This document shows positions 563 through 18,134 of a stretch of DNA of 20,365 nt, piece after piece. Source of the stretch: a virus; the IMG/VR virus record IMGVR_UViG_3300009177_000137, positions 1 through 20,365 of that record; one strand, given 5' to 3'. Made by a program: the position numbers and the translations under genes. The notes beneath the pieces were generated by a model. That model was not told the origin of the DNA. It saw only the letters and a program-made list of their open reading frames with translations, and searched no databases. Position 1 is the first letter of the stretch; the number at the start of each line of letters is the position of its first letter.

Positions 563-934
563 TCACGACCAGTCGATCGCGAGCTGGTGCGACTCCGCGA
601 GCTTCTTCGCATAGCGATCCGCGCGGCGCTCCATCGCGGGAATCCATATCCCGTGGTGACGCTCCCAGGTGTCGCGGCGGAAGTGCCCGGTTCGCGTGCA
701 GAGTTCGAGCAGCTCGTCGAAGCGGTCAGGCGTGAGGAGCGAGGCCTCGCGCAGGTCATCGAGCGGGAGCGCCGCGCCGCGCGAGTCGATGCCCTGGCCT
801 GGGCGCCGCCCGTGCTTCGCGACATGGCACCACAGACCGACGAGCCCGCCGATCCCCTCGGCGCCGAACGCGCGGGCGACGGCGCGGATCTTCGGGTCCT
901 CGGGCATATCGCTATCGAGTTGGAACCACTTCAC
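563..934 (-). CDS. Replisome-organiser N-terminal-like (DUF4373/Lin1244-type) protein
   Basis: The product is 123 residues. It begins MKWFQLDSDMPEDPKIRAV and continues with a GAEGIGGLVGLW segment, which matches the pattern of DUF4373-type N-terminal domains of phage replication proteins (a deep-water 'F/L-D-x-D ... D-P-K-I ... G-x-E-G ... G-L-x-x-L' helical winged domain). In those families this domain is followed by a helicase-loader or DNA-binding part; here the protein ends after it, so it is either a stand-alone domain or a regulator. The start is GTG at 934, chosen for the GGGAGG site 8 or so bases upstream. It sits 15 bases after the putative excisionase gene and 6 before the Cys/His gene, so they form one operon. 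Family assignment is by eye. Confidence 0.65.
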   Translation of the reverse strand: MKWFQLDSDMPEDPKIRAVARAFGAEGIGGLVGLWCHVAKHGRRPGQGIDSRGAALPLDDLREASLLTPDRFDELLELCTRTGHFRRDTWERHHGIWIPAMERRADRYAKKLAESHQLAIDWS

Positions 935-949
935 GGGCAGGCCTCCCGA

Positions 950-1261
950 TCAGCGCGTGCCCGTGCGGCGCGCCGTGCGCGCGCTCGACTTCTTCCGAAG
1001 GTCGGCCTTCACCGGGCGGCGGCGCGTTTGGAACCCGCCGTGGTTGCGCTTCTCGTGATCGCCGCGATCGTGTTCCAGGTCCGCCTCGACGACGGACTTC
1101 CGCCAGCGATACGGATACGAGGCGAACGGGCGCGGGTGGAACGTGCCGTCCTGCAATTTTTGCCGCACGGTTGAATGGGAGAGCCGATAGAGCGCCGCGA
1201 TCTCGGGCAGGGTGACGATCACGCCGAGCTGATCCAGGCTACTAATCACCAAAGGTTTCAC
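950..1261 (-). CDS. AlpA/MerR-like HTH protein, putative excisionase
   Basis: The product is 103 residues. Residues 17-60 contain a helix-turn-helix of the excisionase/AlpA kind: a 'T-L-P-E-I-A-A-L-Y-R-L-S-H-S-T-V-R-Q-K' helix pair followed by a short wing with F-x-x-x-Y-P-Y-R-W. The C-terminus is strongly basic. I chose GTG at 1261 because AGAGGAG lies just upstream; the frame runs open to 1342 but that extension is low complexity. It is the first gene after a good minus-strand promoter (1400-1428) and is transcribed divergently from the integrase. Small HTH proteins next to a phage integrase usually act as recombination directionality factors, bending attP/attR DNA and often repressing int. 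That role is inferred from fold and position. A plain transcription regulator is the alternative. Confidence 0.72.
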   Translation of the reverse strand: MKPLVISSLDQLGVIVTLPEIAALYRLSHSTVRQKLQDGTFHPRPFASYPYRWRKSVVEADLEHDRGDHEKRNHGGFQTRRRPVKADLRKKSSARTARRTGTR

Positions 1262-1362
1262 GAGGTGGCTCCTCTCTTTTGAGCCCCGCACAACGAAAGT
1301 ACCGAGCCCGCCGCGGTGGGATCGCGGAGGCTCGCGCCGCAATAAATCGAGAATGAGGCCGG

Positions 1363-1384
1363 AACTACAGGGGAGTTTGTAGTT
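1363..1384. promoter_or_regulatory. Inverted repeat in the leader of the left operon
   Basis: AACTACA (1363-1369) and TGTAGTT (1378-1384) form a perfect 7-bp inverted repeat with an 8-base spacer. It lies about 16-37 bases downstream of the minus-strand -10 candidate, a typical operator or leader position. The binding protein is unknown. Confidence 0.4.
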
Positions 1385-1399
1385 GCCAGAATTGAGGTC

Positions 1400-1428
1400 T
1401 TTGTATAAAAAGTACGATTCGTTGTCAA
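1400..1428 (-). promoter_or_regulatory. Promoter of the left minus-strand operon
   Basis: On the minus strand there is a perfect TTGACA (1428 to 1423), a 17-base AT-rich spacer, and TACAAA (1405 to 1400); TATACA with a 15-base spacer is an overlapping alternative. It points at the HTH gene starting at 1261. Its -35 overlaps the -35 of the divergent integrase promoter, so the two promoters may compete for polymerase. Confidence 0.6.
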
Positions 1429-1450
1429 TTTTTACGCCAGGAATTATCTA
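1422..1450 (+). promoter_or_regulatory. Candidate integrase promoter
   Basis: TTGTCA (1422-1427), a 17-base spacer and TATCTA (1445-1450) face the integrase. The -35 matches consensus at five of six positions; the -10 is weak. The tandem TAATTC repeats at 1437-1456 cover the spacer and -10, so occupation of those repeats would be expected to block this promoter. This is inference from position. Confidence 0.42.
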
Positions 1451-1456
1451 GAATTA
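1437..1456 (-). repeat. Tandem TAATTC repeats in the integrase promoter (arm-site-like)
   Basis: On the minus strand TAATTCTAGA (1456 to 1447) is followed directly by TAATTCCTGG (1446 to 1437), a 10-bp period. The same 10-bp motif occurs in tandem on both sides of the attP core (3660-3689 and 3878-3897), there on the plus strand. An AT-rich motif this similar is unlikely by chance in such GC-rich DNA. The likely meaning is binding of integrase or its directionality factor at its own promoter. Confidence 0.6.
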
Positions 1457-1463
1457 GGACAGG

Positions 1464-1503
1464 CCCGCGGTTAAGCGGGACCGGCGCCGCGCTTAGGCGG
1501 CGC
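1464..1503. promoter_or_regulatory. Two spaced palindromes ahead of integrase
   Basis: CCCGC-ggttaa-GCGGG (1464-1479) and GCGCCGC-gcttag-GCGGCGC (1484-1503) are two stem-loops. Their cores CGCGGTTAAGCGG (1466-1478) and CGCGCTTAGGCGG (1488-1500) match at 11 of 13 positions with a 22-bp spacing, about two helical turns. They could be a repressor operator pair in DNA, or hairpins in the 5' leader of the integrase mRNA that limit translation. They end 24 bases before the integrase start. Confidence 0.5.
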
Positions 1504-1527
1504 GACTCAAGAGAATGAGGCGTAGAC

Positions 1528-2733
1528 ATGGCACGCAGTAAGGCGCCGCGGCGGTTGTATCCCGGGGTGTGGCGCGAGGGCGATCACCTCGTCGCGGAGG
1601 CGAGCGCGGGGAACTCGCGCACGGGCAAGGTGCGCGATCGGAAACACTTTCCGCTCGGCACCGACTACCGCTCGAAGATCCTCCCGTGGCAACTCAGCCG
1701 ACAGAGCGAGTTACTGCGCGAGCGCCCTGAGGTGGCGGAGCGCGGATCGCTCGCCGCCGATGTGGCGCGGTATCAAGCCGACTTACCAGAGGGCACCGCC
1801 TACACGAAGAACAGCGCGCAGATCCTCGCGCACTGGGCGCGCTCTCCGCTCGGGAAGCGCCCGACGCTTGACCTCGTGAAGCACGACCTCAAGTCGCAGA
1901 TCGCGCGGTGGCTCGCCGCGCCACACGCCGCCTCGGTCAATTCCTGCAACAAGCGCCTCACCAAGTTTCGGATGATGTTCGAGGCGCTCTATCCTGCCGC
2001 GACGAATCACGCGCTCCTGATCAAGTTCACGAAAGAACCCGAGAGCGAGGTCCGCGACATTTCCCCGCTCGCGGTCCAGGCGATCCTCGATGCCCTGCCC
2101 GATCTCGGGCGCGCGGAGAAGGGCGGCGAGCGCCCGGGTGTGAGCGAGACGAAACTGCGCCTCGCGGTCATGGCGTGGACGGGCGCGCAGGGCGCGACCC
2201 TGCGACGGGTGACCACGCAGCACATCGACCTGAAGGGCGGGCGCATCTATCTCACCGCGCGCCGGAAGGGCAAAGGGACGCCCGGGCGGTGGCTCTCCCT
2301 GATCCCGAACGCGATCCCCGCGCTCGGCGCGTTCGTGGCGGCGGGCCTCGTCGGGAAACCGTGGGCGCGCTCCTCGATGCGGAAGACCTGGCTCCGCGGG
2401 ATCGCGCGGGCGAAGGATGCCGCCGCGGGGCACTTCGATCGGACGGGCGATCGCTCCTGGCTCGATGATCTGGAGGCGCTCCCGCCGAACTGCCACCCCT
2501 ACGATCTGCGCCACGGGTTCGCCTCGGAGGTCTACCGGCAAACGGGCGACCTCGGCGCGGTGAAGGAACTCCTTCAGCACGCGAACTTCGAGACCACGCA
2601 ACGCTACACGAAGGGCGCCGTCTCCGAGCGCGTGCAGGCGGCGACGAAGATCGCGGGCGCCGCCTATGCGAAGGTGCCCTCGATGCCGAAGGCGCCGACC
2701 CTGCACCTCGTGAAGAAAACGGGCACGAAATGA
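1528..2733 (+). CDS. int: Tyrosine-family phage integrase
   Basis: The product is 401 residues, a normal length for a three-domain phage integrase: an arm-binding N-terminal part (about 1-65), a SAM-like core-binding domain (about 80-180) and a catalytic domain (about 190-385). Visible catalytic-box residues are K247/K249 in RRKGKG, Y325-D-L-R328-H329 (the HxxR box with Y in the first position), H351 in LLQHANFE and the nucleophile Y360 in TTQRYTKG. The box-I region reads WTGAQGATLRR, with Q221 where most relatives have the first catalytic arginine. The ATG at 1528 has GAGG about 8 bases upstream. It cuts and rejoins phage attP with a bacterial attB; the adjacent tRNA-type core at 3745-3793 is its likely substrate. 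Downstream it is followed by two small genes in the same direction. Confidence 0.95.
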   Translation: MARSKAPRRLYPGVWREGDHLVAEASAGNSRTGKVRDRKHFPLGTDYRSKILPWQLSRQSELLRERPEVAERGSLAADVARYQADLPEGTAYTKNSAQILAHWARSPLGKRPTLDLVKHDLKSQIARWLAAPHAASVNSCNKRLTKFRMMFEALYPAATNHALLIKFTKEPESEVRDISPLAVQAILDALPDLGRAEKGGERPGVSETKLRLAVMAWTGAQGATLRRVTTQHIDLKGGRIYLTARRKGKGTPGRWLSLIPNAIPALGAFVAAGLVGKPWARSSMRKTWLRGIARAKDAAAGHFDRTGDRSWLDDLEALPPNCHPYDLRHGFASEVYRQTGDLGAVKELLQHANFETTQRYTKGAVSERVQAATKIAGAAYAKVPSMPKAPTLHLVKKTGTK

Positions 2734-2765
2734 AGGCCGCGCCGATCAGTGAAAGGAACCAGTCC

Positions 2766-3191
2766 ATGACGATCTACGACGAACTCGCGCGCCTCCTCGC
2801 GTATCACGAAAACGCCGCCGAGACGGTGCGGGCGCAGTTGCGCGTGCTCGGGCGCGGCCAGGACGACCGCGCCCAGGCGCGCGGCCTCGGCGCCGCCGTG
2901 CAGCGGTCGGGTGTGATCGCCGCGCGCGATCTCGATCCCGATCGCCGCGCGGCGAGTGGCCTCTCCCAGGCCACGATCGAGCGCCGCGCGCGCACCGCCG
3001 CCGTGCTCGCCCAATTCGACCCGCGCGAACCGAAACGCGCCGCGGACCTGACCGATCAGGCGATGCCCCTCGCGGGCCTCGGCTCGCTCGTGCGGCGCGG
3101 TTATCTCCGCGCGGAGGCGGGCGGGTTCGTCCGCACCGACAAGCCGTTCTTTGTCCATCCGAACGAACCGAGCGCGCGCGCGCCCCGATGA
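2766..3191 (+). CDS. Small phage protein with a winged-helix-like C-terminus
   Basis: The product is 141 residues and is not a family I can name. The second half (about residues 85-135) reads like a winged helix-turn-helix: a leading helix RTAAVLAQF, a D-L-T-D-Q-A-M-P-L segment, then a recognition-type helix with LVRRGYLR and a hairpin GGFVRT. The first half is helical and rich in Arg/Ala. The frame is open from 2730, overlapping the integrase stop as ATGA, but I prefer ATG at 2766 because AAAGGAA stands 8 or so bases before it. Its stop overlaps the next start as ATGA. A DNA-binding regulatory role is inferred from the fold guess only. Confidence 0.7.
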   Translation: MTIYDELARLLAYHENAAETVRAQLRVLGRGQDDRAQARGLGAAVQRSGVIAARDLDPDRRAASGLSQATIERRARTAAVLAQFDPREPKRAADLTDQAMPLAGLGSLVRRGYLRAEAGGFVRTDKPFFVHPNEPSARAPR

Positions 3192-3514
3192 TGTTCCGCC
3201 GCATCTACTACGTGCTCGACGCCAACGGCGAGCCCGAACGCTGCGACGATTGGATGCGGTGGGCGAAGTGGTTCGAAGACACGCCCGCGCGCATCGTCGC
3301 GCGCGAGGAGCTGCCCAACGGCGTGCAGGTCTCGACGGTGTTTCTCGGTCTCGATCACAACTTCTTCGGGCGCGGCGCGCCGGTGCTGTGGGAGACGATG
3401 ATCTTCGGCGGACCGCATAACGACTTGCAGGTCCGCTATACCTCGCGCGCCGCCGCGCTCGACGGGCACGCCCAGGCGGTGCAGCTCGCGCGCACCGCCT
3501 CGCGCCTTCCCTGA
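3188..3514 (+). CDS. Conserved phage protein of unknown function
   Basis: The product is 108 residues. The pattern YYVLD-x-G-E-P ... W-x-x-WAKWFE ... VSTVFLGLDHNF ... P-V-L-W-ETMIFGG ... RAAALDGHAQAV is one I recognise from many temperate phages and prophages as an uncharacterised small protein; I know of no demonstrated function. The start is ATG 3188 (a second ATG follows at 3191), overlapping the stop of the preceding gene as ATGA and lacking its own ribosome site, so it is probably translated by coupling. It is the last gene of the integrase operon and is followed by GC-rich hairpins and attP. Confidence 0.85.
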   Translation: MMFRRIYYVLDANGEPERCDDWMRWAKWFEDTPARIVAREELPNGVQVSTVFLGLDHNFFGRGAPVLWETMIFGGPHNDLQVRYTSRAAALDGHAQAVQLARTASRLP

Positions 3515-3535
3515 TTCGCCTCCGCTCCCCTTCTC

Positions 3536-3607
3536 GTACCACCGCGCGCGCGCCTCGATAGCGGGCGCGTGCGCGCGCGGCGGTACTGACGACGAGGGTC
3601 GTAGTAC
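3536..3607. terminator. GC-rich overlapping hairpins after the integrase operon
   Basis: A 16-base arm starting GTACC at 3536-3551 pairs with 3571-3586 with a single mismatch and a 19-base loop. A second stem, 3583-3593 with 3598-3607 (ACGAC with GTACT, one bulged G), reuses the GTAC at 3583-3586, so the two structures exclude each other. Position 22 bases after the last plus-strand stop suggests transcription termination before attP, but there is no T-run on either strand, so intrinsic termination is uncertain. Confidence 0.45.
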
Positions 3608-3618
3608 GAAGGTCTTCG

Positions 3619-3641
3619 GGGGATGCCCCGGGGGATGCCCC
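3619..3641 (+). repeat. Left pair of GGGGATGCCCC repeats
   Basis: GGGGATGCCCC occurs at 3619-3629 and again at 3631-3641, a 12-bp period. Together with an inverted copy at 3698-3708 and a pair at 3836-3859 this makes five exact copies within 241 bp. They bracket the attP core. Confidence 0.85.
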
Positions 3642-3659
3642 GCCCTCCGTCGTCCTCAA

Positions 3660-3689
3660 TAATCCTTAGTAATTCTTGATAATCCCTGT
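3660..3689 (+). repeat. Left arm: three tandem TAAT 10-mers
   Basis: TAATCCTTAG, TAATTCTTGA and TAATCCCTGT follow each other at 3660, 3670 and 3680, exactly 10 bp apart, so all would face the same side of the helix. They resemble the two TAATTCTCGG copies at 3878-3897. These are candidate arm-type sites for the integrase N-terminal domain. Confidence 0.7.
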
Positions 3690-3697
3690 CGGGCCTC

Positions 3698-3708
3698 GGG
3701 GCATCCCC
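3698..3708 (-). repeat. Inverted GGGGATGCCCC copy
   Basis: GGGGCATCCCC on the plus strand is an exact reverse-complement copy of the repeat at 3619, 3631, 3836 and 3849. It lies between the left TAAT array and the core. Confidence 0.8.
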
Positions 3709-3744
3709 GTGATCGGGTGTTTCCCGTAACTCATTGATTCGAAA

Positions 3745-3793
3745 GGGTGCGCCCGCTCGGATTCGAACCGAGGCCCCCGCCTTAGGAGGGCGG
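3745..3793 (-). other. attP core: 3' part of tRNA-Arg(CCU)
   Basis: On the minus strand one reads the anticodon stem CCGCC/GGCGG (3793-3789 with 3781-3777), loop CTCCTAA (3788-3782, anticodon CCT), a 4-base variable loop, T stem CTCGG/CCGAG with loop TTCGAAT (3767-3761), the acceptor 3' strand CGGGCGC (3755-3749) and discriminator A (3748). The CCA is not encoded (CCC follows). The 5' acceptor strand and D arm are missing: upstream sequence does not fold as one. This is therefore not a functional tRNA gene but the piece carried by a phage that integrates into the host tRNA-Arg(CCU) gene and restores its 3' end. Confidence 0.85.
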
Positions 3794-3835
3794 CCTCCTA
3801 CCGTTTTCGTGCCCGTATTCATTGGGCGAACTCAT

Positions 3836-3859
3836 GGGGATGCCCCACGGGGATGCCCC
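3836..3859 (+). repeat. Right pair of GGGGATGCCCC repeats
   Basis: Exact copies lie at 3836-3846 and 3849-3859, a 13-bp period, 43 bp to the right of the tRNA-derived core. They mirror the left pair. Confidence 0.85.
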
Positions 3860-3877
3860 AACTCGCGACAGGCGCCC

Positions 3878-3897
3878 TAATTCTCGGTAATTCTCGG
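3878..3897 (+). repeat. Right arm: two tandem TAATTCTCGG
   Basis: TAATTCTCGG is repeated exactly at 3878-3887 and 3888-3897. It matches the left-arm 10-mers in sequence type, orientation and period, and ends 17 bases before the stop of the membrane protein gene at 3915. Confidence 0.75.
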
Positions 3898-3914
3898 CGC
3901 GGCGATTCGGGCGC

Positions 3915-4085
3915 TCACGGGAGCACTGGCCAGGGCGCGCCGAGCAGGCGGAACAGATACACGAGCACGATCACGACGACGACGAGGCGCACGAGGACGC
4001 GGAAGATCGGGTCCATTGGCACGTAGTGCTCGACGATGTAGGCGAGCACGCCCAGGATGACGAGCGCGAACAGATACGCGAACAT
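3915..4085 (-). CDS. Small two-helix membrane protein (Thivi_2564-like), possible holin
   Basis: The product is 56 residues with two hydrophobic segments (about residues 3-18 and 29-48) separated by a short EHYVPMDP loop. This 'hydrophobic helix, Y/F-V-P-M-D, second helix' pattern matches the Thivi_2564-type small membrane proteins that occur often in proteobacterial phages and genomes; their function is not established. I chose ATG at 4085 for its GGGAGG ribosome site rather than the longer frame to 4127. Its position at the far end of the late operon and its two-helix design would suit a holin, but no lysis enzyme is next to it, so that is speculation. Confidence 0.75.
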   Translation of the reverse strand: MFAYLFALVILGVLAYIVEHYVPMDPIFRVLVRLVVVVIVLVYLFRLLGAPWPVLP

Positions 4086-4113
4086 GAGACCTCCCGGTGT
4101 ATGGTTGCGCCCG

Positions 4114-4392
4114 ATGCCTCGACACATTCCGACGCCTGCCGACTTCGCCGCCGCCGCGCCGCGCGCGCGGACGATTCACGCCACCCTGCAGACCTGGCTC
4201 TCGACCACCTACGGCGAGGAGCCGCAGCTCGCGATCCTCGCCGCGTTGAGTTTCGAGATCGCGCGCCTCGTCGCCGTCGCCCCGGGCGTGACGCCCGCCG
4301 AGCAGGCGGCGACGCTGTCGGTGATTCGCGCGGAACTCGCGAGCGAGGTCAGCCGGGTCGCCGCCACACGTTCCAGCCCCAATACACCGTAG
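4114..4392 (+). CDS. Small helical protein, paralogue of the 75-335 product
   Basis: The product is 92 residues, predicted helical. Residues 21-55 align without gaps to residues 19-53 of the minus-strand protein at 75-335 (11 of 35 identical by eye, with conservative changes elsewhere). That similarity is the main reason to call this plus-strand frame real even though it stands against the late operon. The start ATG at 4114 is 28 bases from the divergent membrane protein start, leaving little room for a promoter, and no clear ribosome site is present. Its last 44 bases overlap, tail to tail, the end of the minus-strand gene at 4349. The function is unknown. Confidence 0.6.
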   Translation: MPRHIPTPADFAAAAPRARTIHATLQTWLSTTYGEEPQLAILAALSFEIARLVAVAPGVTPAEQAATLSVIRAELASEVSRVAATRSSPNTP

Positions 4393-4951
4393 TGCCCGCG
4401 GGCACGCCGGAGATCTGTCGGAAGTGCAGGGTCCAGCCCGCCGCCCAGTTATCGACCGTGCTGAGCGTGCCGAAGGTGAACCCGTGCGCCTGGGGCAGGC
4501 CCAGTGTGAGAACACCAGAGGCGAGCGAGTGGAACACCGTGTTCGTGGAGACGATCGGGCGCACCGTCACCTCGAACATCCCGACATTGCCGTTGCCCAT
4601 ATCGCCCACGCCACTCGCGCCCGTGAGCGTCACCAATGGAGACGAGTTTGGATTGCCCGACCCATACAGATCCACGATGAGCGGTGTGGAGAGCACTCCC
4701 GCGACTTGGAGAATGGCGTCGATCTTGAGAAGGTCGCGCGGCCCGAGCTTCGCGGCGGCGATCGGCAACGTGGCGAAGACGCCGACACCGGGACTCGTAT
4801 CGGTGCCCATCGCGGAGACGAGCAGCTCATCGGCGCCGACGACGCCCGCGTCGATCTGATCGTAAAGTTCGGTTTTCCACGCGTTGTTGATGATCGTTCC
4901 GGTCGTGCCGGAGCCGTCATCGTCGATCATGGGCGTGCGGGTGATCGGCAT
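4349..4951 (-). CDS. Phage structural protein, probably distal tail
   Basis: The product is 200 residues. It starts MPITRTPMIDDDGSGTTGT and continues with TIINNAWKTELYDQID, an N-terminus I associate with virion-associated proteins encoded at the end of tail modules in soil and proteobacterial phages. The remainder looks beta-rich with many Gly/Thr/Val, no membrane segment and no enzymatic motif. A strong AAGGAG precedes ATG 4951 and overlaps the stop of the tail hub gene 12 bases away. As the last gene of the late operon it may be a fibre, tip or decoration component. A receptor-binding role is inferred from position only. Confidence 0.65.
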   Translation of the reverse strand: MPITRTPMIDDDGSGTTGTIINNAWKTELYDQIDAGVVGADELLVSAMGTDTSPGVGVFATLPIAAAKLGPRDLLKIDAILQVAGVLSTPLIVDLYGSGNPNSSPLVTLTGASGVGDMGNGNVGMFEVTVRPIVSTNTVFHSLASGVLTLGLPQAHGFTFGTLSTVDNWAAGWTLHFRQISGVPAGTTVYWGWNVWRRPG

Positions 4952-4963
4952 TCGCAGCTCCTT

Positions 4964-6625
4964 CTAAGATTCGTCGGTCACAACAAGATCGAAATACGTG
5001 CTCGCCTTCACGACGGCGCCCGAGCACCGGCGCCGCGGCGGTTGCGTGCGGAGCGGGAAGGAGATCTCCACGCGCGTGATCGTCCGCCACAGCACGAGCG
5101 GATCGATCACTGAGGTGCCGGTCAGGTTGATCGCCTGCAGGCGTCCCGGTTTCGCGTTGAGGTCCTCGGTCTCCCACTCGCAGGTCTGCAGCGGGTGCAC
5201 GAACGCTTCGAGGTCGGCCTGGGCGCGCGCCTGGGCGCCCGCATAGCTATAGCGCCCGTCCTGCACGAACCCTTCGATCGGTGGCCACCCGTCGAGCGAG
5301 GAGGCTAGGCGCGCGAGCACGACGACCGGCGTGCCGACCGGCGCCGCGCGCACGATCCCGTTGAGCGGCGACGGCGCGGTCGTCTGCAGACTCAAGGGAT
5401 AGTCCTCCATCACACAATCCACCCACTCGACCGTTTCCCCGATCGCCATCGGGACGGTGAGCTGCCCGTACGGGTGGATCGCGGAGGCCAGGTTCAAATA
5501 CAGCAACCCGTCCTGCGTGCCGGAGGCCTGATAGGCGGCGAACTGTCCGCCAATCTTGATCCAGCCCTGGATCGGTGGCGCGACCGGCGTCAGCTCGCAC
5601 CACAAGATCGGATCGCCCACCGCGAAGGCGAGCGCGACCCGCGTCTGCGGCGGGTTCCGGTCCACAACGACATGGACCGGCGTTTGGAATTGCATCCATT
5701 GCGTGCCCAGGCGCACGACATGCTGATAGTCGACGCCGAGACTCGCATCGAAGAAGGAGGCATCTTCGAGCGGGATACCGATCGGGCTCGATGCGAAGGT
5801 GTCGATCTGCGGGAGCGGGATCAGGGTCGCGGTGCGGCGCCCCTCGACGATGACCGCGCGCCGGAGCTGCGTCGCGTCGGTCGTCAGGCGGAAGGCCTTC
5901 AGCGAGGCGAGGTTATTCGTGAGCGTCTGCGGGTTCACTTGCCCGGGCTCGTCGAGCGTGCCCGCCCAGGCGTGCACCTCGAACCCGTCGATGTAGAACC
6001 CGCCGCCGACACCGTTCAGCAAGGTCCGCATGACGGTCGAGGGCCGTTCGTTGACGGCATCGAATGCGGGGATCGAGGGCATCCCGGGTTGCACGAACTC
6101 GAGATCGAAGTCGAGCGGACCCGCCGCGATCGGGGAGAGGTTGCAGAACTGCCGCACGAGAAACGCGATCGAGGCGCTCACCGACTGCGTCGGGAATCGG
6201 TAGGACACGATCCGCGCGTCGAAGCGCCACATCGCGTCTTGGCACTGCACCGAGACCCACGGCGATTCGTTCATCGCGCGCCGGTCATATTGCACGACGA
6301 GGGCATAGCCCTGGAACAGCACATCCCCGGGCGCCCAGGCGACCGCGATCTCGGCGCCCACGGTCGGCACGGCGGCGGGCGGTGCGGTCGGCACGATCTG
6401 AAAACTACAGGTATCGGGCTCGTCGTTGAGCGCCTGCGTGACCTGCAGGGACCCGTGTCGAATGTAATCGGTCAGATCGGTCCGCGAGACGATCGCGCCG
6501 GTGCCGTCGCGCACGATCAGATCGACGGTGGAGAAGGGCGCGACGAAGTTCGATCGCGTGGCGCCCGAGCGCGCGAGGCCCGAGCGCGCGAAGGTATAGG
6601 CGCGCTCGGCGCCCGCGATCGCCAC
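4964..6625 (-). CDS. Tail hub / tail-tip (Tal-like) protein
   Basis: The product is 553 residues. The N-terminal third has the pattern of baseplate-hub proteins (gp27/Gp37-like): DYIRHGSLQVTQALNDEPDTC followed by a 'VGAEIAVAW...VLFQGYALVVQYDRR' strand pair and 'PWVSVQCQDAMWRFDAR'. These are beta-barrel domains that ring the tail tip and sit under the tape measure protein. The middle (about 180-230) resembles the second hub domain, and the rest is beta-rich. The start is GTG at 6625, overlapping the tape measure stop as TAGTG. Its position right after the tape measure gene is where hub proteins are normally found. A distinct Dit-like protein is not seen, so this protein may also do that job. 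Confidence 0.8.
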   Translation of the reverse strand: MAIAGAERAYTFARSGLARSGATRSNFVAPFSTVDLIVRDGTGAIVSRTDLTDYIRHGSLQVTQALNDEPDTCSFQIVPTAPPAAVPTVGAEIAVAWAPGDVLFQGYALVVQYDRRAMNESPWVSVQCQDAMWRFDARIVSYRFPTQSVSASIAFLVRQFCNLSPIAAGPLDFDLEFVQPGMPSIPAFDAVNERPSTVMRTLLNGVGGGFYIDGFEVHAWAGTLDEPGQVNPQTLTNNLASLKAFRLTTDATQLRRAVIVEGRRTATLIPLPQIDTFASSPIGIPLEDASFFDASLGVDYQHVVRLGTQWMQFQTPVHVVVDRNPPQTRVALAFAVGDPILWCELTPVAPPIQGWIKIGGQFAAYQASGTQDGLLYLNLASAIHPYGQLTVPMAIGETVEWVDCVMEDYPLSLQTTAPSPLNGIVRAAPVGTPVVVLARLASSLDGWPPIEGFVQDGRYSYAGAQARAQADLEAFVHPLQTCEWETEDLNAKPGRLQAINLTGTSVIDPLVLWRTITRVEISFPLRTQPPRRRCSGAVVKASTYFDLVVTDES

Positions 6626-16399: not shown

Positions 16400-16588
16400 C
16401 TACGGGCTCCGAGTTTCTGTTTTTTGGCGCCGGGTCCGGAGGTCGCGCCGAATCAGCTCGGGCACCGAGACGCGCGCCGCCCGGGCGCGCCGGTAATAGG
16501 CGTCGTAGGTGCGCGCCGGGATGGTGAGCGAGACGACCACGGATCGATCGGGCGGGTCGATCGGCGGGCGCCCGGGTTTATTCGTCAT
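16400..16588 (-). CDS. Small ribbon-helix-helix protein between TerL and capsid genes
   Basis: The product is 62 residues. VVVSLTIPARTYDAYYRRA gives the antiparallel strand and first helix, and VSVPELIRRDLRTRR the second helix, the CopG/Arc-type ribbon-helix-helix pattern. The N-terminus (GRPPIDPPDR) looks like an AT-hook-like arm. The start ATG 16588 lies 11 bases inside the terminase gene and has GGGGGAGG about 8 bases upstream; I prefer it over the longer frame to 16660. Proteins of this fold bind DNA as dimers and usually repress. Inside the late operon it might autoregulate structural genes or assist packaging; that is inference. Confidence 0.78.
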   Translation of the reverse strand: MTNKPGRPPIDPPDRSVVVSLTIPARTYDAYYRRARAARVSVPELIRRDLRTRRQKTETRSP

Positions 16589-18134
16589 CGGACGGACCTC
16601 CCCCAAACACGAGGATCTGATATTCGGGCGACGGTGCGTGATCGTTCCGCTCCATCGCATCGAGCGCCATCACGAGCGCGACGGCGCCGTCGATCTTCTC
16701 GGTCGAGGCCTCCTTCGAGAGTTTCACGTTCCCCGCGGCATCGCCCTCGACCGCCGCGTTGGACAGGTTCCAGCGGAGGACCGGGTGCCCGTCATGCCGG
16801 AGGCGCTTCGACAGGATCGCCATCTCCAGGGACTTCGTCGGCGCGGAGAGCGAGGCGAGCCCCTGGCGCATCTTCACGCACGGGAGCCCGTCGATTTTTT
16901 CGAGCCGACTGACCAGATCGGTCGCGTTCCACGGGTCGTACGCAATCATTTTGAGGTCGAACTCCGTGTCCCAGTCCGTGAGGAGCGCGCGCACGGCATC
17001 GTAGTCGACGACCGGCCCGGGCGTGGCGGTGACGAACCCCTCCCGCCGCCACACATCGTACGGGACCCGATCGCGCGTCACGCGCTGTTGAATCCGATCC
17101 GCAGGGATGAAGAAATGCGGGAGCACCGCGAACCACTCGCCCATCGGGAAGACGGCCACCACGGCGGTGAGGTCGGTCGTGCTCGACAGGTCGAGGCCGA
17201 TGAAGCACCGCCGCCCGCGGAGCGCCGCGCGATCGATCGGGCCGAGACACGCGTCCCACGCCGTCATCGCGACCCACCGCGCGGCCTGTTCGGTCCACTG
17301 GTTCAAGTAGAGGCGGCGGAACGAATTCTCCGCGCCTGGGATCTCCCGCGCGCGCAGGCACGCGATCCGAAGCTCCTCCAGACTCCGGAAGTCCCCGAGC
17401 GCCGGATTACAGGCGCGCCACACCTTCTCGTCGGTCCAGTCGGCGTCCGCGGGCGCCTCGTAAATCACCGGAAGAAACGACGGATCGATCGACGGGTCCG
17501 CGAGGACGCGCTTCGCGTGGCTGTAGACCTCCCACAGGATCGAGTGCCGGTCATAGCCTGCGGTCGAGATCGCGATCACCTGCGGTTGCGCCCTGGCGCC
17601 GGTGCTCGATGTGAGCACATCCCACAGTTCGCGGGAGGGCGCCGCGTGCAGCTCGTCATAAATCACGCGCGAGGCGTTGAACCCGTGTTTTGAATAGGCC
17701 TCGGCAGAGATCGCGCGATAGAACGAGCCGGTCTTCCGATGCACGATCCGTTTCTGGCTGTCGATGATCTCGCAGGCGGCGAGCAGCTCCGCGTCGTTGC
17801 GGATCATCTGCGCCGCCACATTGAACACGAGCGCGGCTTGGTCCTTGTCCGCCGCGGCGGAGTAGACCTCGGCGCCGATCTCGCCGTCGAACAGCAACCC
17901 GTCGATCGCCAGGGCGGCGGCGAGTTCCGACTTCCCGTTCTTGCGCGGCAGCATTAGCAAGCAAGTGCGAATCCGGCGCCGATGTGTCAAGCGGTCCACC
18001 GCGAACAGTTGCCGGAGGATCTTCTCCTGCCATCGGCGGAGGTGGAAGGTCTGCCCCGCGAACGGGCCTTTCGTGTGCGTGAGTTGGTTGATGAGCCGGA
18101 GTTTCAGCGCGACAGGGTTCGGTGGGCGAGGCAT
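16578..18134 (-). CDS. terL: Terminase large subunit
   Basis: The product is 518 residues, a Terminase_1/HK97 gp2-type motor. The ATPase half has a Walker A-like PRKNGKS (63-69) and Walker B VIYDELH with D160/E161; S-T-A at 190-192 fits the coupling motif. The nuclease half carries D315 (GLDLSSTTDL), D400 (AYDPWNA) and D482 (EKIDGAVAL), the expected metal-binding acids. The protein packages DNA into the prohead and cuts it to length. The start is ATG 18134, 28 bases after the small subunit stop. Its end overlaps the ribbon-helix-helix gene start. Confidence 0.96.
   Translation of the reverse strand: MPRPPNPVALKLRLINQLTHTKGPFAGQTFHLRRWQEKILRQLFAVDRLTHRRRIRTCLLMLPRKNGKSELAAALAIDGLLFDGEIGAEVYSAAADKDQAALVFNVAAQMIRNDAELLAACEIIDSQKRIVHRKTGSFYRAISAEAYSKHGFNASRVIYDELHAAPSRELWDVLTSSTGARAQPQVIAISTAGYDRHSILWEVYSHAKRVLADPSIDPSFLPVIYEAPADADWTDEKVWRACNPALGDFRSLEELRIACLRAREIPGAENSFRRLYLNQWTEQAARWVAMTAWDACLGPIDRAALRGRRCFIGLDLSSTTDLTAVVAVFPMGEWFAVLPHFFIPADRIQQRVTRDRVPYDVWRREGFVTATPGPVVDYDAVRALLTDWDTEFDLKMIAYDPWNATDLVSRLEKIDGLPCVKMRQGLASLSAPTKSLEMAILSKRLRHDGHPVLRWNLSNAAVEGDAAGNVKLSKEASTEKIDGAVALVMALDAMERNDHAPSPEYQILVFGGGPSDDE

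Follow-up and report, generated by a model that had tools for sequence, protein, structure and literature searches.

Genes of the integration cassette

The window, by which we mean the whole 20,365-base virus record analysed here (68% GC), carries an integration cassette in which a tyrosine integrase gene (int) and a leftward operon are divergently oriented, with a phage attachment site (attP) at the other end of the cassette (Table 1). The integrase gives a Pfam Phage_integrase match and fold matches to lambda Int, and its N-terminal strands and helix precede a catalytic domain; this organization, together with the 2 + 1 + 2 layout of the P-type sites (putative arm sites) at attP, corresponds to that of lambda-like integrases.

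The first gene of the leftward operon, which was aligned in 14 phages, encodes a small winged-helix protein that weakly matches HTH_17 and PHROG excisionase/regulator families, the HTH_17 match being found in 13 of the 13 records searched. Its predicted structure has a mean pLDDT of 73, rising to about 90 in the DNA-binding core, and its best fold matches in the PDB include BldC, the RdfS excisionase, the P2 protein 4lhf (Cox) and Pukovnik Xis, with none of the Foldseek matches at E<=0.001 (best, 0.042). Among its fold matches are thus recombination directionality factors (RDFs) and BldC. A small winged-helix protein encoded first in the early lytic operon is a feature of systems of the Apl/Cox type, and the gene content of the leftward operon suggests that it is early lytic.

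A search confined to the HTH_3 family found no Cro/CI-type repressor in 12 of 13 records, the window included, some of which may be fragments. The one record with such matches, L022, encodes them between its HTH gene and int, and has also lost the A-type pair (see below) upstream of int. Elsewhere in the window, a small ribbon-helix-helix-like ORF without a Pfam match (16400-16660, minus strand) lies between the terminase and capsid genes and could be an unrecognised regulator.

Table 1. Features of the integration cassette (window coordinates).
Feature	Position	Strand	Remarks
Lin1244-like / replication-initiation-like gene	563..934	-	second gene of the leftward operon
Winged-helix excisionase-like protein (HTH_17 / phrog_66)	950..1261	-	first gene of the leftward operon
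Leftward -10, TACAAA (17-bp spacer) or TATACA (15-bp spacer)	1400..1405	-	from alignment of relatives
Leftward -35, TTGACA (excisionase-like operon)	1423..1428	-	TTGAC[A/T] in 13/14 aligned phages
A-type tandem TAATTCTAGA TAATTCCTGG	1437..1456	-	proposed operator pair for the excisionase-like protein
Putative int -10, TAGAAT	1449..1454	+	overlapped by the A-type pair; without a good -35
Tyrosine integrase, N-terminal three-strand + helix domain (arm-binding type)	1528..2733	+	
Left P-type pair, GGGGATGCCCC twice, 12-bp spacing	3619..3641	+	proposed Int arm sites P1-P2
Left A-type triple TAATCCTTAG TAATTCTTGA TAATCCCTGT	3660..3689	+	10-bp period
Inverted inner P-type copy (P3)	3698..3708	-	
attP core, 3' half of tRNA-Arg(CCT), anticodon loop CTCCTAA	3749..3793	-	read from sequence
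Right P-type pair, 13-bp spacing	3836..3859	+	proposed P4-P5
Right A-type pair, TAATTCTCGG twice	3878..3897	+	

Two classes of sites at attP

The whole attP covers positions 3619-3897, with a core about 2.2 kb from the start of int. No complete tRNA was found at this core in the window; tRNA cores homologous to it are present at attP of the relatives. The sites of the relatives also follow a common order. A P-type pair (12-bp spacing) comes first, then three AT-rich A-type repeats with a 10-bp period and a P-type copy in inverted orientation; beyond the tRNA core lie a second P-type pair (13 bp) and one or two A-type repeats. Among integrase groups, the P-type sequence differs completely (GGGG..CCCC, CCGCCCCA, GTCACGCA, CTACCAAGTGA or GGGTACACAC), and yet the layout of two, one inverted and two copies and the 12/13-bp spacing remain constant. 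The A-type sites, which we delimited by eye in each relative, keep TA[AT]TT[CT] in most phages. Those at attP of the window are direct repeats with a period of one helical turn, as in Apl/Cox-type systems, and exact copies of GGGGATGCCCC occur in the window at attP only.

Comparison alone thus separates excisionase-type from integrase arm-type sites in about 20 attP regions, and a set in which the P-type sequence changes within a fixed layout should be useful for studying the specificity of integrase arm domains. In L005, L006, L007, L027 and L029, a second HTH_17/AlpA-like gene, located left of attP on the minus strand, starts inside P1-P2, so that the repeats are read as GGTPGGTP-type peptides.

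A repeat pair between int and the leftward operon

A sigma-70 consensus scan of positions 1000-5000 on both strands returned no promoter-like match, after which the promoters were taken from conserved hexamers. The leftward promoter is the better of the two. Its equivalent is kept in nearly all aligned relatives: TATATA occupies the -10 place in L005, L006, L007 and L027, three of which (L005, L006 and L027) have TTGACA-N17-TATATA, and the L022 version of the -35 is TTGACC. For int, a -35-like word, TTGTCA at 1422-1427, lies 21 bp from TAGAAT, and YAGAAT is equally far from TTGTCA in most relatives.

Between these elements, TAATTCTAGA (1456-1447) and TAATTCCTGG (1446-1437) form a minus-strand tandem with a period of exactly 10 bp. 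Given the int -10 at 1449-1454 and the leftward -35 at 1428-1423, the pair covers the former and adjoins the latter just upstream. The first-pass annotation had described a TAATTC pair here, inverted relative to the attP arm repeats and sharing their period, and it is present exactly as claimed. The annotation had also placed the repeats over the spacer and -10 of an integrase promoter candidate: the overlap with the -10 stands, and the candidate itself is weak, having neither a sigma-70 match nor a good -35.

The pair is rare in the window. TAATTC hexamers occur five times, at 1441-1456 (minus strand), 3670 and 3878-3893, and the exact tandem TAATYC-N4-TAATYC has four matches in the 20 kb, confined to 1441-1456, 3660-3685 and 3878-3893. 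Allowing up to two mismatches, there are five matches against 0.54 expected, a number reached by 0 of 100 shuffles. The segment 1435-1458 is identical to the right attP arm (3876-3899, inverted) at 20 of 24 nucleotides. The exact scan agrees with the earlier statement that copies are limited to 1437-1456, 3660-3689 and 3878-3897. Copies scattered without relation to int or attP, which the first-pass annotation had set against its own proposal, are absent from the window, so that in this sequence the proposal withstands that check; among the relatives, five have an additional copy that recurs about 1 kb into the leftward operon. This A-type-like site, CCTATTTCTG[A/C]GCG..TTTGT on the minus strand, is located approximately 0.9-1.1 kb leftward of the int start, just after the replication-like gene, in L007, L027, L028, L029 and L031, and was not seen in the window.

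Several other elements surround the two promoters. An inverted repeat, AACTACA-N8-TGTAGTT, just 3' of the leftward -10 (1363-1384) could be a further operator or a leader hairpin. The int leader (1464-1505) contains two GC-rich hairpins, CCCGC..GCGGG and GCGCCGC..GCGGCGC, the CTTAG loop of the latter resembling the attP core. In L005, L006 and L007, the int leader carries CTCTGAGACG repeats with a 10-bp period, possibly another operator array.

Conservation and co-variation of the int-upstream copy

Searches with the integrase and the HTH protein yielded about 20 related phage contigs, with integrases ranging from identical to about 35% identity; near relatives in this comparison share ancestry and the records may be incomplete. 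The annotated phage collection contained no relative of the window integrase. In genome collections, the integrases found were all distant and had no HTH, A-type or P-type sites nearby, so that no integrated prophage with attL and attR was available for comparison. In an exact-pattern tandem scan, the matches beyond the same family were AT-richer unrelated contigs.

We scanned each contig with a weight matrix trained on the A-type attP sites of the other groups, so that each score was held out. In most of 14 phages, the minus-strand tandem upstream of int scored highest outside attP, and in 7 of 12 intergenic regions its score was beaten or equalled by 0 of 2000 dinucleotide shuffles. In the window, 1437-1456 ranks second across the whole sequence in a motif model built from the attP arms of other phages alone; 21 of 2000 dinucleotide shuffles of its intergenic region reach the held-out score. 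Most relatives retain the pair, which in the window lies about 2.2 kb from attP, in their int/xis intergenic region; operators repeated at a promoter region away from att are again a feature of Apl/Cox-type systems. L005 and L007 have a further A-type copy just 3' of the leftward -10.

The promoter copies also co-vary with attP of the same phage (one representative per group; permutation P=0.00125). In the window, L027, L067, L070 and L072, the attP that matches the promoter copy best is that of the phage itself, and diverged promoter copies follow their own attP, as do CCTATTTTAA in L067, CAACATT in L070 and GCTTATTTTTGCATAAATTT in L072. No convincing own-attP match was found upstream of int in L021, L065, L074 and L076. 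When the promoter region was compared with its own attP by best HSP, the result was decisive for the L021 and L023 groups only, short sites being uninformative. The A-type class is the only one common to attP and the int promoter of the window. These comparisons support the view that the A-type repeats of attP and the repeats upstream of int are the same kind of site.

One contig shows a different combination. In L083 (2074-3900), a homologue of the excisionase-like protein (58% identity) adjoins an unrelated P4-type integrase and abuts a tRNA-like core with the right arm only (a P-type pair and CCTAATTC) of the window's family, an apparent module exchange.

Which protein binds the A-type sites?

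When HTH is controlled for, P-type divergence follows the integrase (partial Mantel 0.50, P=0.003); it does not follow the HTH protein (0.02). There is no correlation between A-type and P-type divergence (0.14, P=0.19), and each class is therefore likely to be bound by a different protein. The P-type sites are thus probable targets of the integrase N-terminal domain, i.e., putative arm sites. A-type divergence fits the HTH protein (partial 0.27, P=0.066) and the integrase N-terminus (0.29, P=0.047) equally, and co-variation therefore leaves the binder of this class unsettled. In L070, the CACGCA P-type of its integrase group is kept, the A-type sites have diverged and the recognition helix is the most diverged. 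Direct repeats of 10 bp are a hallmark of RDFs, as documented for Apl, lambda Xis and Pukovnik Xis (PMC7498355), and head-to-tail binding on repeats spaced one turn apart is known for BldC and RDFs (PMC11963761, PMC7498355). From the fold matches to RDFs and BldC, and from the fit of the P-type sites to the integrase N-terminus, we assign the A-type sites, including 1437-1456, to the HTH protein and not to the integrase, an assignment that we favour without great confidence.

The first-pass annotation had proposed that the protein binding the attP arms also controls int. The shared site class on which this proposal rests is borne out by conservation and own-attP co-variation, whereas its binder is not likely to be the integrase, whose arm sites are probably GGGGATGCCCC; the divergently encoded winged-helix excisionase-like protein (950-1261) is the likelier one. 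Were the A-type repeats integrase arm-type sites, the integrase would bind 1437-1456 and repress its own gene. The A-type sites do flank the core on both sides, like arm sites, and lambda-type integrases can use tandem arm sites. Their divergence correlates with the integrase N-terminus as well as with the HTH protein, and int promoters repressed by Int exist in KplE1 (IntS; PMC2951348) and ICEMlSym (IntS; PMC11963761). Against this, a better set of arm sites is available in the P-type copies, which change with the integrase and are absent from the int promoter of the window. The place of the head-to-tail, AT-rich 10-bp array, between P2 and the core, is moreover that of the excisionase sites in lambda-like attP. 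Because the P-type set fits better, TAATTC as an integrase arm site was rejected as the best reading, and repression of int by its own product through this pair seems rather unlikely.

The pair could also be a weakly functional or non-functional remnant of attachment-site duplication, in which case the int/xis intergenic region would descend from a copy of attP, and in L021, L023, L024, L026 and L028 this region indeed has its own tRNA anticodon stem-loop-like core and a P-type pair at the attP spacing. We consider this improbable, since in most relatives the A-type pair is fixed relative to the leftward -35 without any core or P-type copy and co-varies with its own attP, which indicates selection. 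The same co-variation makes it very unlikely that the repeats are promoter parts only (AT-rich -10 or UP-like elements) resembling the attP arms by composition. In a window of this GC content, AT-rich words cluster in promoters and att arms, TAGAATTA overlaps a -10, and some shuffles do reach the held-out score of the pair; this explanation has to face the exact 10-bp register, the lack of any other tandem in 20 kb, the top non-attP rank in most relatives and the seven relatives of twelve in which no shuffle matched the score. Finally, another phage or host protein, e.g., a nucleoid protein, might bind both places, its gene lying outside the window or among the uncharacterised ones, such as the ribbon-helix-helix-like ORF; as the motif changes follow the phage and not a common host factor, and a conserved gene of excisionase fold adjoins the site in the relatives, such a binder is highly improbable.

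A proposed control circuit

We thus read 1437-1456, at a probability of roughly 0.6, as an operator of the phage's own excisionase-like protein, through which both int and the protein's own operon would be controlled. As the pair beside int matches the attP repeats and is kept in most of the approximately 20 relatives, control of the integrase gene probably falls to the protein that also helps the phage to excise from the chromosome; as the site adjoins the stronger leftward promoter, control of both operons is probable. We infer from these data that the product of 950-1261 is the binder and an excisionase, as well as the sign and strength of the regulation.

In the proposed circuit, monomers of the excisionase-like protein would bind cooperatively, head to tail, to the AT-rich 10-bp repeats of attP and help excision. 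Once enough product of the leftward operon had accumulated, it would fill 1437-1456, cover the int -10 and lower integrase synthesis. As the pair is oriented towards the leftward -35 and lies directly against it, the protein would probably adjust its own operon too, more likely down, by a filament spreading over the -35, than up. This would probably be feedback of a known type in a new phage family, and it provides a testable control circuit for uncultivated phages in which 12 of 13 records have no detected CI-type (HTH_3) repressor.

A second att-like half-site in some relatives

In L021 (920-1020), L023 (3780-3880) and at equivalent positions in L024, L026 and L028, an att-like half-site lies in the leader between the leftward promoter and the start of the HTH gene. 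Its core is the phage's own, with 15/15 identity to CGCCGTGTGAAGGCG, L021 having CCGCCTTAGGAG, which matches its different tRNA. The phage's own P-type pair follows 55-60 bases past the core, as in attP (E down to 3e-9), and the L023 group also has an inverted P copy. The half-site is inverted relative to attP, and int lies between the two cores.

The half-site could serve the integrase as an operator or as an inversion site, or it could be a relic. A lysis-lysogeny switch built from recombination sites can be imagined, in which the excisionase would act on the int promoter and the integrase, in some relatives, on the leader half-site, the two repressing each other without a CI-type repressor. 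Although we regard this as doubtful, such a temperate phage would choose between integration and replication by means of its recombination proteins. In an extreme form, the two inverted cores would let the integrase invert the int cassette, which is extremely improbable; a scan for one pattern of inverted-cassette junction found none, a weak negative since few contigs carry the leader core.

Comparison with known systems

Among the closest parallels is Apl of phage 186, the one-turn direct repeats of which occur both at attP and in the lytic/lysogenic promoter region, and the window protein putatively works like Apl. The geometry differs: in 186, pR and pL are face to face with seven operators there and five at attP, whereas the promoters of the window are back to back with two, perhaps three, putative operators there. 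Apl needed three adjacent operators in vitro; the window has two clear ones and an AT-rich third. In the window, the rightward gene is int itself and a CI-type repressor was not detected. Since the pair overlaps the int -10 upstream of the leftward -35, instead of lying between face-to-face promoters, we do not file the protein as an Apl/Cox member and say only that it may work like one. Cox of P2 and P2-like phages is likewise a winged-helix RDF with operators at att and at the early promoter region; its promoter arrangement is different, and the likeness rests on fold (4lhf, a weak match with prob 0.63) and not on sequence membership.

RdfS of ICEMlSym(R7A), the fold of which matches the window protein (8dgl, prob 0.97), is a winged-helix RDF with binding sites at attP and at promoters, and it coordinates the rdfS and intS genes. 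The attP of this element has five Int arm sites, the same number as the putative ones of the window. RdfS sites, however, share no consensus motif and act at att to activate PintS, whereas the window has a clear 10-bp motif 2.2 kb from attP. In KplE1, TorI (and IntS) repress int via sites common to recombination and the promoter (PMC2951348). The int promoter overlaps the attachment region there; in the window it does not, att lying 2.2 kb off at the other end of the cassette, and one class of sites is shared. XisF4 of Pf4, an excisionase, doubles as a transcriptional regulator and binds the promoter of its own gene, next to a divergent gene (PMC7379572); this divergent gene is the repressor gene pf4r in Pf4 and int in the window. 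What differs from the known systems is thus that no CI-type repressor was found, that att is distant, and that xis and int stand back to back with int as the target.
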